Assembly (NCBI GenBank): GCA_016937995.1
Contig: JAFGVM010000011.1
Span: 1-7,310, forward strand
Length of the DNA stretch: 7,310 bases
DNA from: Candidatus Delongbacteria bacterium
Lineage (GTDB): Bacteria; UBA4055
Direction of reading: 5' to 3'
The position numbers and the translations under genes were made by a program. The notes beneath the pieces were generated by a model. The model did no database searches. It saw nothing but the letters and a program-made list of their open reading frames with translations, and was not told the origin of the DNA. Shown one piece after another: positions 80 through 6,441 of this stretch. The first letter of the stretch is position 1; each line of letters starts with the position of its first letter.

Positions 80-1600
80 TTATTTTAGCAACAACATCTT
101 CTTTGTCATTGAAGGAACTCCATCTACATTAAGTTTGTAAAAGTAAATTCCTCCGGTAAGTTCAGATGCGTTGAAACTAATACTGTGCTCACCTTTTTCC
201 ATCAGATTATTGACTAAAGAACTAACAATTTCACCGCTGGAATTATATACAATTAATTCAACATTTGAATTATTTTCTAACCTGAATTTGATCTCTGTTG
301 TTGGATTAAAAGGGTTAGGGTAGTTTTGATATAATAAATTACCATTTATCATTACCGGGTTATCATTTATCCCTGTTGTAGTCCATAATCTGACATCGTC
401 GACATACCAGATATCACCCGCAATTCCCTGATAATTGAACCCGATATATATCTCCTGTCCGTCATATTCACTTAAGTCAACATAAGTCTGCTGCCAATTT
501 GATGTATGAGGAAGATTATACTCTACCATATTGTAACGGCCCAGGTCTTTTGTTGTTCCAACACTATGAATTCCGGTAGCTGAAGAGTATTTTGTTTTTT
601 CCCAGAATGATAGAACAGCATTTCCTGTTATCATCATTTTTGGAGAATACATCCAGTCATCCTGAGCGTCAAAATCATCATAAGAATGAGCTGCGGAAAA
701 TACTCCTGTGTTGGGATCTGATAACTGAATCCATCCAAGTCCTGTTGTTTGAAGTATCCATCCTGTCGGTTCAAAACTACCTTCAAAACTTTCGTAAAGA
801 TTCTGAAATAAAGCCGGATCCAGTGTTCCTACCTGCAGATTAACAAAACTTTCCTTCCCTGTGACTGTTGCACGAATAGTCAGGTCTACTGTTGTCATTT
901 TCTGATGACTGTCCAGAATAAGATCGCTCCCGTTCACACTTGCAGTGACAGCTTCATTGTCAGAATTTGAATAGACCTCGTAAGTTATATCTAAACCTGT
1001 CCCGTTATAAAAAACTGATGAAAGGTCTATAGTCTGTTGCTCATCAAAATACATATCTGCAATGTCTGGTACGTTCGTAGGGTATAATTCGAAATTTGCT
1101 AATGCCGCATCAATATGTACTGTTAATTGTGACTCAGTAGAAAATGTATTTCCAACCATATATGCCTGATATCCGGGTCCTACAACAATGTTATATGGAA
1201 CATAACCATTCCCAAACCCGCTGTATAATGATCCTAATTCACTCGCTATTGAAACATAGTACGTTAAATTTGGAGTAAAAACTGTTCTCCAGCCAGTTGT
1301 GTTCATACTGTCCCAGTTATTGTTATTTGTACTCCCGAATGCTATATGCAAACTCGAATGATCGTAATCATTCCAGATATTTTCAAACAACGGAGCCTCC
1401 GTTGAACAACCGGGTCAACCTAAGTAGCCCCAGGTTAATACTACAACTTTCCCAGCATCAACCATATCATATAGATTTCTGGTTACAGGTGCTCCTCCGT
1501 CTGAATCCTGCCAGGTTACATTGTCAACAATATCCCATTGATTATACTCAGCGAATACTGACAAAGATATTATCAGAATCAGTAAAAATATTTTTTTCAT
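80..1600 (-). CDS. T9SS-exported thioredoxin-like selenoprotein (UPGC active site), read through an in-frame TGA
   Basis: A 506-residue protein if the TGA at 1415-1417 is read as selenocysteine (Sec62); otherwise it would be a 61-residue stub plus an orphan 435-residue remainder in the same frame. Residues 1-17 are a signal peptide (cut likely after VFA). Residues 18 to about 170 look like a thioredoxin or redoxin fold: strand VVVLTWGYLG, then U62-P63-G64-C65, a helix, and a candidate cis-proline P135 in GYVPYN. Residues 171-260 look like a cadherin/Ig-type beta domain. Residues 267-406 resemble a MAM-like choice-of-anchor domain (ESFEG start, WYVDDVRLW end). Residues 422-506 are a T9SS type-A sorting domain (NYPNPFNPTT, then GGIYFYKL, ending KKMLLLK). 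C65 is the only cysteine, so U62/C65 is the only possible internal redox pair. The ATG at 1600 has a GGGAGT ribosome site (1606-1611). It is the last of four operon genes. Likely role: surface or secreted thiol oxidoreductase; the substrate is unknown. A pseudogene or sequencing error is the alternative but is unlikely. Confidence 0.87.
1388..1404 (-). promoter_or_regulatory. Candidate bacterial SECIS hairpin after the first Sec codon
   Basis: In the mRNA, a perfect 6-bp stem, CAACGG with CCGUUG, closes a 5-base loop AGGCU. The apical loop begins 17 bases after the UGA. Bacterial SECIS elements are stem-loops directly downstream of the UGA with a G among the first two apical loop bases; E. 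coli fdhF has an AGGUCU loop at nearly the same distance. The loop here, with G at its second base, closely resembles that. It lies inside the coding sequence, as expected in bacteria, where it would recruit SelB. Called from pairing by eye; no folding energy was computed. Confidence 0.75.
1415..1417 (-). other. In-frame TGA predicted to encode selenocysteine (Sec62)
   Basis: The minus-strand codons around it read Gly-TGA-Pro-Gly-Cys. The first part of the gene (1600 to 1418) and the rest (1414 to 80) are in the same frame with no other stop. The TGA replaces the first cysteine of a thioredoxin CxxC motif, giving UxxC, the commonest arrangement in thioredoxin-like selenoproteins. The segment between the TGA and the next possible start (TTG at 1388-1390) encodes sensible fold residues (CSTEAP, like the C-x-x-E-x-P of redoxins), so translation must pass through this point to make a complete domain. 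Confidence 0.87.
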
Positions 1601-1605
1601 TTGTC

Positions 1606-1611
1606 ACTCCC
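1606..1611 (-). promoter_or_regulatory. Ribosome binding site fixing the ATG start at 1600
   Basis: GGGAGT on the minus strand lies 5 bases before the ATG. It fixes the signal-peptide start at 1600 and supports initiation there rather than at the in-frame TTG at 1390, which has no comparable site placed as a purine-rich leader; the sequence before that TTG is taken up by the predicted SECIS stem. Confidence 0.6.
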
Positions 1612-1619
1612 TTTGTTAC

Positions 1620-3233
1620 CTAAAATTCTGATATCAATGTCATCCTGAAACCGTCAAATTCAGGAACCTGTCTGCATGCACCTCCGGAACATTTAATTCC
1701 GGCTCTCTCTCTACCGTAAAACAGTTCAAGCTTATGATTATCATATATATTAATACCGGCTTCAAATCCCAGCCATGAATCAGGAGCATCTTCAGCTACT
1801 TCTTCAGAAGTAGTTATCAATGAAATATTTAAATAACCATATTCAGGATATGAATATTCGACAGCAAAATACATGTCATCATAATCCTCATCCATAAGTT
1901 CATTTGTAACGGTCTGATATTCACCTGCGAACATCAATCCTGAGTTTTCGTTCAACTCATAATGAAATTCGCCCAGGAATGTAATCCTTTCATCAGAGTA
2001 TACACCGGTCGAATCTGTATCTGTTTCTCCGGGAATAATGAACTGATTCGCATCTTTAGACAGTGGAGCATCTTTCAGATAACCACCGCCTATCTTAATG
2101 TTATATTCACCTGTCCCGTATTTTGCGTCAGCCCAAATATCCATGTAAGGCAGATAATCATCTGAGAATTCAGGCATAACAGCGTCTTTATTGTGCTTCG
2201 ATGCAACTGCAAAAATAGTTGAAATATCAAGATTATCTACAGGATTTGTAAGAATTGAAAGTTTATATCCTATCTCATCGTTCGGATTTATCTCATGAGG
2301 ATGAGAGTTCAATAAATGTGATGTATGCTCTATCGTAAGTTCAGGCCCACCTTGATAAGGTGTAAATCCGGAAACAGTAGCATTAGGGTTAGCAGCATAC
2401 TGATAGTAATCTTTGAATTCTAAAGTTATCCCGAATCCCTCTCTTGAATAAGCTAATGAAGTATAATTTGCCCAGCCTTGTTTCGATGGGCTTCTCTGAG
2501 TGGTCTTAAGAGCGTATTCATTGTACAGATCAAAGTTCAACGCACTTGCACTAAAACTTATTCCTCCAATTTCTGTCTCTTCGATAAAGCTGGCTTCATA
2601 AAGGAATTGCAGCTCCGGAACATAATCTCCCTTCATATAAAGATAAGACCCACCCAAGTTCAAAACATAATTTTCGAGCTTAAATATTTCGCTTAGATTC
2701 AAGATCGTTTCACTACCCAAAAGCATTGTATTCATCTGATCAACACTCTTGTTTGAAGTGTCAAAATCGTTTATATACTTGAAGTAACTTTTTCCACCTA
2801 ATGCCTGAAATGTAAGAAAGTCACCTTCGTACATTAACTTTCCTCCGGTAACTTTACTGTCAAAAAAATCAGCTCTTTCCTCCTTCAGATCAAGAACAAC
2901 TCCTCTACCGAATGTACCGTAAAAATCACCGGCTGTGATCGTTATGTCATTGTTGAAGTACTTGAAAAACTTCTTTGTAAAACCATTTAAAGCTTCATTA
3001 AACTCACTGGAATCAGCAGCTTCATATCTGAACCCCAGGGAAAAATCACCTTTTGAAGCATCAACTGATATACAATCCTGAACGTATTGTTTTTTTATCT
3101 CAATATCTTTATCGTCTCCAACCCATTCACTCCCGGTTCCAAATTTTATGGTATTAGTTGCTGATATTTCAAATTCCTCAGCTATGACCATACTAAAAGC
3201 AACAAATATTAACATAAGAATTAATTTTTTCAC
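1620..3233 (-). CDS. DUF6029-like outer-membrane beta-barrel protein
   Basis: A 537-residue protein of unknown function. Residues 1-18 are a signal peptide (cut likely after VIA). The rest is built of alternating short amphipathic strands with many aromatic residues and ends in phenylalanine, as outer-membrane barrels do. The segment GDFYGTFGRGVVLDLKEER (about residues 97-115) matches my memory of the DUF6029 signature, in which a GDFYxxFGxGLxLRxxEER stretch is followed by a GG-containing strand; the match was made without a search. Near the C-terminus, KCSGGACRQVPEF holds two cysteines, C515 and C520; the only other one is C54. The gene lies between two selenoprotein genes, 18 bases after the stop of one and 19 before the start of the other, so it is probably the outer-membrane partner of the redox proteins, perhaps a port or docking site. 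The start is GTG at 3231-3233, chosen for its ribosome site and the intact signal peptide. Confidence 0.8.
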   Translation of the reverse strand: MKKLILMLIFVAFSMVIAEEFEISATNTIKFGTGSEWVGDDKDIEIKKQYVQDCISVDASKGDFSLGFRYEAADSSEFNEALNGFTKKFFKYFNNDITITAGDFYGTFGRGVVLDLKEERADFFDSKVTGGKLMYEGDFLTFQALGGKSYFKYINDFDTSNKSVDQMNTMLLGSETILNLSEIFKLENYVLNLGGSYLYMKGDYVPELQFLYEASFIEETEIGGISFSASALNFDLYNEYALKTTQRSPSKQGWANYTSLAYSREGFGITLEFKDYYQYAANPNATVSGFTPYQGGPELTIEHTSHLLNSHPHEINPNDEIGYKLSILTNPVDNLDISTIFAVASKHNKDAVMPEFSDDYLPYMDIWADAKYGTGEYNIKIGGGYLKDAPLSKDANQFIIPGETDTDSTGVYSDERITFLGEFHYELNENSGLMFAGEYQTVTNELMDEDYDDMYFAVEYSYPEYGYLNISLITTSEEVAEDAPDSWLGFEAGINIYDNHKLELFYGRERAGIKCSGGACRQVPEFDGFRMTLISEF

Positions 3234-3251: not shown

Positions 3252-4211
3252 TTATTTTGAATATGCCTGATTGTACATTTTCTGCTGCCATTCTTCAAAA
3301 TCACCGTCATTTAATAAATCATATTTGATTATTATACCTGTTGGCATAATAGCTATAACGTCATTATTGGTCACTGCTACAAGACCGTCTGTCTGCTCTT
3401 CTACAAAAGTCTCTACATAATCTTCTGTACCGTCCCAGAAACAATCATATGGAAGACTATTCTCTGTTCTAAAAGCATCGAATTGTCTTCTATCAATAAA
3501 TGTATGATTTCCGAAAAGTGAGTGAGAGAATGGTTCATTATAATTCGGATTTTCATACATATTTTTAAAGGCAACTGCCTCTTCCAGACAAGAAGCTCAA
3601 CCGTCAGCAAGAAACTGTATAAATGTAAGCTGCTCAACCTTTCCTGTAAAATCGATAGAGTCTCTTCCGGTATTTTCCAGCAGACCGAATTTTTCAAAAA
3701 TCTTCTCTTGGAGGTATTTTTTTTCAAAGTTGTAACCTAATTTTTCAGAATTACTAATGTTTTCTGATTCATCAGCAATTGAAAAATACAAATAAAATTT
3801 CTGAGGATTAATTTCCTGAACAGCAGGTAGATCTGCCACATTTAGTATAAACAGATAATCTCCTTTTTCATCTGCTGATTTTGATTCTAGCTCATAGGAT
3901 ATTTTACTAAGCCAATCTTCCGCAAAAAGTGATACTTTATGTAGTGTTCCATTATCAATAGCCGATATAACCATACCATAGTCAGTTGTAAATTTTAAAC
4001 TATCCTGAAAATGTACAAATGTTGTATCTAGATTCAATTCAAAATACTGAGAATCGTATATTGTGTCTAAAGTCGAACAGTTGTAAATTACAACTCTTTG
4101 CACTTCGGGTGATTCAAAATCCACATTAACAGGTGTTTCTGTGTGACATGAGTAGAAAATAAAGGCTAAAAATACCAGCATACCCATGAAAAATAAGTTT
4201 AGATTCTTCAT
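3252..4211 (-). CDS. Lipoprotein selenoprotein with C-terminal thioredoxin-like domain (UASC motif), read through an in-frame TGA
   Basis: A 319-residue protein if the TGA at 3597-3599 is selenocysteine (Sec205). Residues 1-21 are a hydrophobic signal ending FYS before C22, a plausible lipobox, so it is probably lipid-anchored. Residues about 23-160 are beta-rich with no recognised family, perhaps an Ig-like domain (PEVQRVVIYNC, YLFILNVADLP, FYLYFSIADES). A linker of about 30 residues follows. Residues about 192-319 begin with strand QLTFIQFLADG, then U205-A206-S207-C208-L-E-E-A and a helix, the layout of a thioredoxin-fold active site and reminiscent of Omp28-type proteins with Cys replaced by Sec. 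A clear cis-proline was not found, so the fold is less certain than in the downstream selenoprotein. Other cysteines are C45 and C257. Its ATG overlaps the stop of the TlpA-like gene by 4 bases, which implies translational coupling, and GAGGA (4221-4225) serves as ribosome site. Probable periplasmic redox partner; substrate unknown. Confidence 0.82.
3567..3582 (-). promoter_or_regulatory. Candidate bacterial SECIS hairpin after the second Sec codon
   Basis: In the mRNA, AGAGGC pairs with GCCUUU (6 bp, one a G-U pair) around a 4-base loop AGUU with G at its second position. The loop starts 21 bases after the UGA, inside the range usual for bacterial SECIS elements. It is less stable than the one at 1388-1404 and the loop sequence differs, which is normal because these elements share shape rather than sequence. 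A rival pairing closer to the UGA (CUUC with GAAG) is possible. Confidence 0.55.
3597..3599 (-). other. In-frame TGA predicted to encode selenocysteine (Sec205)
   Basis: The minus-strand codons read Gly-TGA-Ala-Ser-Cys-Leu-Glu-Glu-Ala. Upstream (4211 to 3600) and downstream (3596 to 3252) parts are in one frame with no other stop. The position is again the first residue of a CxxC-type motif at the end of a hydrophobic beta strand, and the residue before it is again Gly (GGT codon in both genes). Two independent TGA codons at equivalent redox positions in one operon are hard to explain as chance mutation. Confidence 0.83.
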
Positions 4212-4744
4212 TTGCTCTTTTCCTCACTTTTTTCATCATTTATTTCAACTTTTACTTCGGAATCAAAAGCTGATAATATTGCTTCCTCGAACATTTTTTC
4301 TGTTCCTTTCCCATCCTGCTTGAAAACGATTTCTCCTTTCGTGTTCAAAATAAAGGTCACAGGTACTTTAGAAGAACATCCGAAGCTTTTAAATACTTTT
4401 TTATCACTGTCAAAAAGGACCTGAAAATCAAATCCTTTAGACTTTACAAAACTCTTAGCCTTTTGGATAGCACTTCCTTTATCTATCGTGATAAGGAGCA
4501 TACTGAGACCTTTATCCTTGTATTTATTATAAAGGTCATTGAACAACGGCATTTCCTCTTTACATGGAACACACCATGATGCCCAAAAATCAATTAAGAC
4601 CGGCCCTTTTGCTAAAACTTCTTCAAGTTTCACTGATTTCCCGTTAATATCTTTCAACTTGAAATCAGGTGCTTTTTTCAGTTCCTCTGAAAATAGTATA
4701 ACACTAAAAAAAAGTAGTGCTAACATCACTTTTTTCAATACCAT
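4208..4744 (-). CDS. TlpA/ResA-like periplasmic thiol:disulfide oxidoreductase
   Basis: A 178-residue thioredoxin-fold protein. Residues 1-19 are a hydrophobic export signal. APDFKLKDINGKSVKL (25-40) is the typical start of the AhpC/TSA-Redoxin family. FWASWCVPCKEEMP (53-66) holds the active-site pair C58 and C61, and P128 in KVPVTF is the cis-proline, followed by the FILNTKGEIV strand. An extra cysteine, C123, lies five residues before the cis-proline. The tail, residues 161-178, is highly charged. Such proteins usually reduce disulfides or supply electrons in the periplasm; the direction here cannot be told. It is the first gene of the operon and the only one of its three thioredoxin-like proteins with a full CxxC, so it may reduce the two UxxC partners. 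GAGGA (4751-4755) lies 6 bases before the ATG. It ends in TGA within the ATGA overlap with the next gene. Confidence 0.92.
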   Translation of the reverse strand: MVLKKVMLALLFFSVILFSEELKKAPDFKLKDINGKSVKLEEVLAKGPVLIDFWASWCVPCKEEMPLFNDLYNKYKDKGLSMLLITIDKGSAIQKAKSFVKSKGFDFQVLFDSDKKVFKSFGCSSKVPVTFILNTKGEIVFKQDGKGTEKMFEEAILSAFDSEVKVEINDEKSEEKSK

Positions 4745-4788
4745 CTTTGATCCTCACATTTAATTTGTGTATGTTCAATTCCTGCAAC

Positions 4789-4804
4789 ATAGATATTTAT
4801 CTAT
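4789..4804. repeat. AT-rich inverted repeat in the operon leader
   Basis: ATAGATA, two bases, then TATCTAT: a perfect 7-bp palindrome. It lies between the candidate operon promoter and the TlpA-like gene, 45 bases before its start codon. It could be a repressor site or a weak leader hairpin. Its AT content makes chance possible. Confidence 0.4.
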
Positions 4805-4819
4805 ATTCTTCCTAGTCCT

Positions 4820-4848
4820 ATAGTATCAAATAAAAAATAAAAAAACAA
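4820..4848 (-). promoter_or_regulatory. Candidate promoter of the four-gene redox operon
   Basis: On the minus strand an extended -10 (TGA before TACTAT, at 4825-4820) stands 17 bases after a poor -35, TTGTTT (4848-4843). It predicts transcription from about 4813 and a leader of roughly 70 bases. The region is very AT-rich, so this is a best guess rather than a firm site. Confidence 0.4.
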
Positions 4849-4899
4849 GGTTAAAGTTAACAAATAATACAGATTTAACTGCGTTACTGCAAGTTCCTC

Positions 4900-4923
4900 A
4901 CAATCAAAATATCCATTGATTGT
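4900..4923. repeat. 8-bp inverted repeat upstream of the aminopeptidase promoter
   Basis: Arms ACAATCAA (4900-4907) and TTGATTGT (4916-4923) are perfect inverted copies separated by 8 bases, with a span typical for a dimeric regulator's operator. It ends 16 bases before the -35 of the plus-strand promoter and lies between the divergent transcription units, so a regulator here could act on either. No such regulator is encoded in the window. Confidence 0.5.
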
Positions 4924-4939
4924 TTCCAAATAAAACAAA

Positions 4940-4968
4940 TTGACAAATCTGGCTTTGAGGATTATATT
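4940..4968 (+). promoter_or_regulatory. Sigma-70-type promoter of the aminopeptidase gene
   Basis: A consensus -35, TTGACA (4940-4945), is followed after exactly 17 bases by TATATT (4963-4968), one mismatch from consensus. Predicted transcription starts near 4975, giving a leader of about 40 bases. It is the strongest promoter-like signal in the window. Confidence 0.75.
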
Positions 4969-5003
4969 CTAGGTCTGTTAATTGTCGTATAAAAATTTAT
5001 ATA

Positions 5004-5010
5004 AAGGAGA
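5004..5010 (+). promoter_or_regulatory. Strong ribosome binding site of the aminopeptidase gene
   Basis: AAGGAGA, 6 bases before the ATG at 5017, is a near-perfect anti-Shine-Dalgarno match. Together with the GAGG-type sites of the minus-strand genes it shows this organism uses Shine-Dalgarno initiation, unlike most Bacteroidota. Confidence 0.75.
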
Positions 5011-5016
5011 TTAGCA

Positions 5017-6441
5017 ATGGCAAAGGAAAAAAAATCAGATCTCGAAAAATTGGGTGAAAAGCTTCTTTTTACCAAAAAGAACGGGTGGGATGGTCTTGAA
5101 AAAAAGAACTTCGATACTGTAATGGCCCTTTCTGAGGATTACAAAAATTTCCTTAATTCGAGTAAAACTGAAAGAGAGTCCATTGATACTATCGCTAAAC
5201 TTGCCAAAAAGTTTGGTTTTGTTGATATCAAAAAAGCTAAGAGAACAGATAAAAAGCTTTTTATCAATTATGATGGTGTTGCCGGTTCATTGGTCTATGT
5301 AAAAGACCCAAAGAAATTTCATGAGGGTTTCCTTATGAATGGAGCTCATATAGACGTTCCGAGAATCGATCTTAAACAGAACCCGCTTTATGAAGATGAA
5401 GATATGGCTTACATGAAAACTCACTATTATGGTGGAATAAAAAAATACCAGTGGGTAACCAGACCTTTAGCTCTTCATGGAGTTATTATTCTTGAAAATG
5501 GTAAAACTGTAAAAGTAAATATCGGTGAAAAAGATACAGATCCGGTATTTACAATCAATGATCTGCTTCCTCATCTTGCTCAGGACCAGTACAAAAAAAC
5601 TCCTGCGACTGTTGTTGAAGGTGAACAGCTGAATATTCTTGTAGGATCTATACCCTACAAATTCAAGCATGAAAAAAATGCCGTAAAATTAGCTATACTC
5701 GATCATTTGAATAAAGAGTATGGTATAGTTGAAGAGGATTTTGTAAGTGCTGAATTACAATTAGTTCCTGCCGGAAATGCCAGGGATATAGGATTTGACA
5801 GAAGCTTTGTCGGATCTCACGGTCATGATGACAGGATCTGTGCATATCTTGGAATGAAAGCTATCTTAGACATTAAAGAGAAGGATATTAAGAAGAATTT
5901 AATGATGATCTTCTTTGATAAGGAAGAGATCGGTTCTGCCGGAAATGCCGGTGCGGATTCTAATATTGTTGAAAGAATGGTCAATGATGTTCTACAGCTG
6001 AACGGAAACAAAGATTACAATGTCCTGATAAAAGCACTTGAGAACTCCAAACTACTTTCATCTGATGTAAATGCCGGAATTGATCCTGCCTGGAAGAGTG
6101 TGAATGAACCAATGAACGCTGCTAAGATCGGTTACGGAGTTTGTTTGACTAAATTCACTGGATCAGGAGGTAAAGGTGGTTCTAATGAAGCTCATGCTGA
6201 ATTTGTAGCTGATGTAAGAAAAGCTTTCAACAAAGACGGCGTTCTATGGCAAACTACAGAACTTGGAAAAGTGGATCAAGGTGGTGGTGGTACTATCGCA
6301 AAATATTTGGCTTCTTACGGAATGGATGTGGTTGACTGCGGAACAGCATTGCTTTCTATGCACGCTCCATTCGAAATTGCTTCAAAAATAGATATTTATC
6401 ACACTTACAAAGCGTATCTTGCTTTCTACAAATACTTGTAG
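5017..6441 (+). CDS. M18-family zinc aminopeptidase
   Basis: A 474-residue cytosolic metallo-aminopeptidase with no signal peptide, of normal length for peptidase family M18, whose members remove N-terminal residues from peptides as large oligomers with two metal ions per active site. Metal-binding motifs are all visible: H111 (GAHIDVP), bridging D272 (HGHDDR), E303 and E304 (DKEEIGSAG; catalytic base and ligand), D350 (SSDVNAG) and H449 (SMHAPFE). A glycine-rich loop (TGSGGKGGSNEAH, 381-393) and DQGGGGT (420-426) match the conserved late part of the family. The AHIDVPR and GGIKKYQW segments resemble the bacterial aminopeptidase-1 type rather than the eukaryotic aspartyl type, so substrate preference is uncertain. 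It has its own promoter and terminator and is divergent from the redox operon, so it is probably a housekeeping gene in peptide turnover. The ATG follows a strong ribosome site. Confidence 0.95.
   Translation: MAKEKKSDLEKLGEKLLFTKKNGWDGLEKKNFDTVMALSEDYKNFLNSSKTERESIDTIAKLAKKFGFVDIKKAKRTDKKLFINYDGVAGSLVYVKDPKKFHEGFLMNGAHIDVPRIDLKQNPLYEDEDMAYMKTHYYGGIKKYQWVTRPLALHGVIILENGKTVKVNIGEKDTDPVFTINDLLPHLAQDQYKKTPATVVEGEQLNILVGSIPYKFKHEKNAVKLAILDHLNKEYGIVEEDFVSAELQLVPAGNARDIGFDRSFVGSHGHDDRICAYLGMKAILDIKEKDIKKNLMMIFFDKEEIGSAGNAGADSNIVERMVNDVLQLNGNKDYNVLIKALENSKLLSSDVNAGIDPAWKSVNEPMNAAKIGYGVCLTKFTGSGGKGGSNEAHAEFVADVRKAFNKDGVLWQTTELGKVDQGGGGTIAKYLASYGMDVVDCGTALLSMHAPFEIASKIDIYHTYKAYLAFYKYL

Follow-up and report, generated by a model that had tools for sequence, protein, structure and literature searches.

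Selenoproteins with a UxxC motif, in which selenocysteine (Sec, U) replaces the first cysteine of the CxxC pair, are known among the thiol:disulfide oxidoreductases that resemble ResA/TlpA or peroxiredoxins (Prx), and are represented by PF00578 and by the WAxxUGC-type model NF041054 (PMC13188914, PMC9312934). Selenoproteins of the outer envelope have also been described, comprising the ExtKL cytochrome, the MtrB/PioB barrel and a TonB-dependent receptor of the FCYXU type (PMC13188914). The DNA analysed here (the window) is a stretch of 7,310 nucleotides from a Candidatus Delongbacteria bacterium (contig JAFGVM010000011.1, assembly GCA_016937995.1), and its minus strand holds a gene predicted to join a UxxC thioredoxin-like domain to a C-terminal sorting domain of the type IX secretion system (T9SS). 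Gingipains are exported by the T9SS. Thioredoxin-like proteins outside the cytoplasm are exemplified by the exposed pneumococcal lipoproteins Etrx1 and Etrx2, which are Cys-based and reside on the Gram-positive membrane, where CcdA-Etrx constitutes a surface redox pathway.

The predicted protein shares features with each of these systems. Like the UxxC selenoproteins similar to ResA/TlpA and Prx, it is predicted to adopt a thioredoxin-type fold and to have Sec where CxxC has its first Cys; the putative Sec codon is directly followed by a bacterial-type selenocysteine insertion sequence (SECIS), and homologs with Cys exist. However, it carries immunoglobulin (Ig)-like, jelly-roll and T9SS domains, belongs to an expanded family, and NF041054 is absent from its model matches. 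With the type A cargo of the T9SS, such as the gingipains, it has in common the sorting domain, an adhesin-type jelly roll and a putative signal peptide, in a genome that encodes SprA, whereas its catalytic domain is a predicted selenocysteine thioredoxin. Compared to the Etrx proteins, Sec would be used here, and the last carrier would be a separate T9SS protein, both the use of Sec and the relay being predicted from the genes. The outer-envelope selenoproteins mentioned above would coincide with it in location but belong to other families, none of them given as T9SS cargo or as a UxxC thioredoxin. A literature search retrieved no link of selenoproteins to the T9SS or to Delongbacteria, a weak negative given that most subscription journals lie outside its coverage; a rabbit-diet paper and a paper on Porphyromonas gingivalis CRISPR that came up for selenoproteins and type IX secretion proved unrelated. 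The reviews of prokaryotic selenoproteins consulted describe none as type IX secreted. Thus, T9SS-sorted UxxC thioredoxin selenoproteins appear to be undescribed in the literature searched: the chemistry and the fold are known, while the export route and the architecture would be new, accompanied by a large expansion.

Two open reading frames of the minus strand, 1415..1600 (61 residues) and 80..1390 (436 residues), lie in a common frame with a lone TGA between them. An earlier interpretation made from the letters of the window (the sequence-only reading) had recognized this arrangement and placed the TGA in a Gly-TGA-Pro-Gly-Cys context, which the sequence corroborates at 1417-1415. Read as a residue, the TGA yields a single 506-residue product, MKKIFLLILIISLSVFAEYNQ...TWGYLG-U62-PGC65...KMLLLK, whose sole cysteine is C65. 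Both the single protein and the single cysteine had been proposed in the sequence-only reading, and they are borne out by the translation with TGA as U, by the residue count, and by relatives that continue past the TGA instead of stopping before it. By every sequence test available, positions 80-1600 of the minus strand are a predicted selenoprotein gene, and the interpretation that this gene encodes a T9SS-sorted UxxC selenoprotein is assigned a probability of about 0.82.

The N-terminal part of the protein is related to ResA and thioredoxin. The family profile matched ResA (4nmu, E 8.7e-9) and thioredoxin (4fyu, E 5.4e-10) in the Protein Data Bank (PDB); in these alignments, the U column coincides with the first Cys of the active site, and the invariant P135 with the cis-Pro of ResA. 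The scores of this part fall under the Pfam gathering thresholds of AhpC-TSA (15.7 vs 26 bits) and Redoxin (13.5 vs 26.6 bits), and hence it is placed as thioredoxin-like, outside these two families. Fold comparison was limited to residues 170-506, as the thioredoxin part was poorly modelled. By fold, the jelly roll resembles the cleaved adhesin domain of the gingipain Kgp (4itc, Z 9.2) and reelin repeats (Z 10.2), and meprin-type jelly rolls were also matched. The UxxC thioredoxin, Ig-like and anchor-type domains that had been read from the sequence are therefore recovered by the profile matches to ResA and thioredoxin, by NF038128 and by the fold matches.

Relatives of this protein are widespread in a phylum set of 13 genomes (one family, seven genera), to which the window's genome belongs as a 2.75-Mb draft, 97% complete. 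When the N-terminal domain served as query, 10 of the 13 genomes yielded relatives, almost always with a single TGA, and a profile search reached all 13, its weakest matches being ordinary TlpA-type proteins. At least 46 genes, from 11 genomes and six of the seven genera, have their TGA in the same alignment column, the two genomes without such members being G004 and G006; once duplicates are removed, there are 45 distinct Sec sites whose flanks are complete, and one masked site. The conservation of TGA at this column across homologous genes is far beyond chance. Of the distinct contexts, 39 have U in this column. A single true member of the family has Cys there, as do TlpA proteins that are more remotely related, while three degenerate copies show D, Q or E. 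The Cys-containing homolog, for which the sequence-only reading had suggested a search, is L029/L059 (motif WCVPC). The Cys at position +3 is the only one common to the 22 full-length members examined. A phylogeny of the domain joins the window gene to L024-L026, its syntenic orthologs (92/94), and places the Cys member among the Sec members (82/92). A search of a viral collection retrieved no relative of the window protein.

A SECIS-like hairpin follows the TGA. The model for bacterial SECIS elements comprises a loop of 3-9 nt whose first two positions include a G, 4 bp or more, a spacing of 16-37 nt and a minimum free energy (MFE) of -7.5 or lower (PMC13188914), and the window hairpin falls within all four limits. 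So do 34 of the 45 family sites, compared to 9.9% of controls in which the same peptides were recoded synonymously, and relative to synonymous controls the family sites fold with a mean z-score of -1.9. All 15 Ala codons at +18 are GCG, a codon that represents only 13% of the Ala codons elsewhere in these genes. The base pairs of the hairpin covary in relatives (0.519, against 0.173 when shuffled, with 0 of 500 shuffles reaching it, and at most 0.194 when slid); the shuffle control can be inflated by relatedness, to which the slide and synonymous controls are not sensitive in the same way. An Rfam search of the window gave no match.

The window's genome holds the machinery for selenocysteine insertion. 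The sequence-only reading had pointed to selA, selB, selC and selD as the genes to look for, and all four were found: selA (549 bits), selB (334 bits), a tRNA-Sec with anticodon TCA, and selD (L053, G000:C37:2048-2968), which has one in-frame TGA of its own, a common feature among Sec users.

Some observations weigh against the interpretation of the window gene as a T9SS-sorted UxxC selenoprotein. The AlphaFold2 model of the thioredoxin part, built on an alignment of only four sequences, has a confidence score (pLDDT) of about 30, so that this domain rests on the profiles. Under a strict fold test, 11 of the 45 family sites fail at least one SECIS constraint, and a PorV-like match in the genome reaches 220.3 bits, short of its curated cut-off of 250. 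The last of these bears on the strongest alternative, in which the protein is a selenoprotein that is not displayed at the surface, its tail being merely Ig-like or FlgD-like, or the product being released or periplasmic. FlgD_ig does match the tail weakly, and some relatives from other lineages end in dockerin-like or other domains. However, the tail exceeds the cut-offs of both TIGR04183 and PF18962, as anticipated in the sequence-only reading, and TIGR04183 recognizes it in 21 of the 23 full-length relatives scanned. SprA is present as three segments in one 2126-residue frame (649.9 bits combined, cut-off 200), and the same search found no match in 14 control genomes. Together with the likeness of the jelly roll to the adhesin domain of a gingipain, itself T9SS cargo, these data make a non-surface selenoprotein unlikely, and the sorting tail and SprA point to a probable surface display of the window protein.

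Far less room is left for the alternatives that deny the selenocysteine. A TGA arisen as a sequencing error, or as the scar of a pseudogene in an ordinary CxxC thioredoxin-like protein, would require one substitution from a Cys codon, and the window is known from a contig (C46) of a metagenome-assembled genome only. Nevertheless, the same column carries TGA in many independent assemblies, the hairpin is conserved and the sel set is complete. Moreover, in the closest pair tested (L035/L036), the ratio of nonsynonymous to synonymous substitution rates (dN/dS) is 0.134 upstream and 0.131 downstream of the TGA, with dS around 0.6-0.7; since this ratio is low and equal on both sides, the portion 3' of the TGA is translated. 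The homologs thus refute error or decay, which retains hardly any credibility. A genome-wide reassignment of TGA to an ordinary amino acid, or random read-through, would account for the several genes with in-frame TGA in this genome (six family copies, a lipoprotein and selD), but TGA is also an ordinary stop that terminates tlpA and trmJ in the window, and nearly all family members have exactly one TGA, at one site where U alternates with Cys. With the hairpin behind that codon, and with tRNA-Sec(TCA) and selABD encoded in the genome, reassignment was rejected as extremely improbable. Finally, two separate genes, a 61-residue exported peptide and a 436-residue protein initiated at an internal TTG, are allowed by translation table 11, in which both frames are open, but this would leave the larger protein without signal peptide and redox centre, while relatives keep frame and spacing and the match to the thioredoxin profile runs across the junction, so that this option was also discarded as next to impossible. 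Gene callers based on table 11 split each such gene in two, and the family is therefore probably missed or mislabelled in annotation.

For the T9SS-sorted selenoprotein, SelB and the hairpin would direct the insertion of Sec at residue 62, which corresponds to the first Cys in a thioredoxin-type CxxC motif (U62-P-G-C65). The signal peptide would take the protein over the inner membrane via the Sec export pathway, and the C-terminal sorting domain would pass it to the T9SS, which would carry it, Ig-like and adhesin-type domains included, across the outer membrane to the cell surface. At this location, the U62-C65 pair would most likely act as a thiol/selenol oxidoreductase with thiol-disulfide type chemistry. 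Selenocysteine is costly and sensitive to oxidation. The export of a multi-copy family by the T9SS would widen the range of sites at which selenium chemistry is used, would suggest that Sec proteins can cross two membranes, and would speak for a redox function outside the cell in a little-known phylum that is uncultured.

The coordinates of the gene, its elements and its neighbors are collected in Table 1.

Table 1. Predicted features of the window discussed in the text.
Feature	Position	Strand	Basis
T9SS-sorted UxxC thioredoxin-like selenoprotein gene, 506 residues, Sec at 62	80..1600	-	Translation with TGA as U; TGA column in homologs
Ribosome-binding site AAAGGGAG, 5' of the ATG	1607..1614	-	Read from sequence
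Signal peptide MKKIFLLILIISLSVFA, residues 1-17	1550..1600	-	Read by eye from sequence
Thioredoxin-like domain (ResA/TlpA type), residues 19-168, U62xxC65, cis-Pro P135	1097..1546	-	PDB profile search
In-frame TGA, predicted Sec codon (U62) of the G-U-P-G-C motif	1415..1417	-	Sequence and homolog column
SECIS-like hairpin CAACGGA-GGC-UCCGUUG, 7 bp, loop GGC 17 nt past UGA, MFE -12.1	1388..1404	-	Fold; covariation; bacterial SECIS constraints
Ig-like beta domain, residues 170-262	815..1093	-	AlphaFold2 pLDDT mostly 63-92; Z up to 9.9 to Ig-like domains
Choice-of-anchor J / cleaved-adhesin-type jelly roll, residues 268-404	389..799	-	NF038128, 47 bits (cut-off 30)
T9SS type A sorting domain, residues 427-506	83..322	-	TIGR04183, 32.1 bits (cut-off 23); PF18962, 39.2 bits (cut-off 27)
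DUF6029 protein, probable outer-membrane beta barrel, directly upstream of the selenoprotein gene	1620..3233	-	PF19494, E 7.6e-47
Lipoprotein, 319 residues, U205xxC208, C-terminal thioredoxin-like domain; second hidden selenoprotein	3252..4211	-	TGA/Cys orthologs; fold match
SECIS-like hairpin AGAGGC-AGUU-GCCUUU of the lipoprotein, loop 20 nt past UGA, MFE -7.5	3567..3582	-	Fold
In-frame TGA (U205) of the lipoprotein, context DG-U205-ASC	3597..3599	-	Sequence
TlpA/ResA-like thiol oxidoreductase, ordinary WCVPC site; TGA stop overlaps the lipoprotein ATG	4208..4744	-	PF00578, E 5.2e-26

The uncharacterised lipoprotein encoded upstream in the same operon represents a second predicted selenoprotein that is interrupted by a TGA. 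The sequence-only reading had overlooked it, as well as the multi-copy nature of the family and the presence of similar exported UxxC genes in other lineages. Its orthologs in the three genomes of the window's genus hold the TGA and the same hairpin, whereas those in five genomes of other genera exhibit a TGT or TGC codon and have lost the hairpin. This exchange between Sec and Cys, with a hairpin that tracks the putative Sec form, is a clean natural control. No significant match to Pfam or NCBIfam was obtained for the lipoprotein. The model of its C-terminal domain (pLDDT around 80), in which a helix starts at U205, resembles ResA/TlpA-type proteins (Z 11-12.7) as well as Etrx2 (Z 10.9, rmsd, the root-mean-square deviation, 3.0, 131 aligned residues). 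The DUF6029 protein bears a C-terminal CSGGxC pair (residues 515 and 520), kept in all four relatives examined, which is possibly redox-active.

The co-occurrence of the window selenoprotein with a periplasmic TlpA-like CxxC protein, a UxxC lipoprotein and a DUF6029 barrel in one gene neighborhood has led to the proposal of a role in a relay. The window protein would likely be the outermost carrier of a chain running from DsbD through TlpA and the Sec lipoprotein to the surface selenoprotein, with the DUF6029 barrel as a possible partner, a logic similar to that of the pneumococcal CcdA-Etrx pathway. Genes for DsbD_TM proteins are present in the window's genome. The order lipoprotein, DUF6029, T9SS selenoprotein is also found in L084, L085 and L086, while G012 holds tlpA, the U-containing lipoprotein and DUF6029 followed by a convergent gene for a different T9SS Sec paralog, so that synteny is seen in four further genomes. 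However, it is solely in the window's genus that tlpA was seen beside the lipoprotein gene, and the majority of the paralogs are located at other sites, which makes the relay a case of guilt by association. A trans-envelope thiol relay, including the direction of electron flow and its substrates, is held with less confidence than the selenoprotein itself. That Delongbacteria, and probably several other lineages, use a chain fed by DsbD/TlpA, from a Sec lipoprotein to a large and diversified set of UxxC selenoproteins displayed by the T9SS, is put forward tentatively. If true, extracellular disulfides, sulfur species or oxidants would be the targets of bacterial selenoproteins working at the cell surface.

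Outside the phylum, a profile search recovered genes for exported UxxC proteins in genomes of other lineages (L139-L153), in which the position of the TGA is the same and a comparable hairpin is present (e.g., GCGGAGGCTCCGC). Among them, L141, L142, L146 and L153 hold a T9SS-type tail, and L140 and L150 a dockerin-like end. Since such genes were found, the predicted architecture is not confined to Delongbacteria, while the expansion of the family may be.

Within Delongbacteria, a genome may hold up to about seven Sec copies. The six TGA copies of the window's genome comprise the window gene, three genes in tandem (C50:57.7-62 kb), one on C71 and one on C3 beside selA. Tandem arrays of T9SS selenoproteins were observed in L087 (G000:C50), with three genes, and in L090 (G005:C74), with four, and they look as if they reflected diversification. 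Degenerate active sites were found in L048, L097 and L098 (NDPY, DQSN and EEDL, respectively), which are perhaps non-catalytic surface proteins. A divergent branch (L088, L101, L102, L104 and L075) exhibits CxxU (TACYSU/EACFSU) in place of UxxC, and has its own hairpin, such as GATGCC-GGA-GGCATC, with a shift of one codon. Its member L088 (G000:C3, near 6741-8288, plus strand) lies close to selA (3642-5051, minus strand), and a thioredoxin-reductase-like gene is located nearby, at 1385-2305 on the minus strand.
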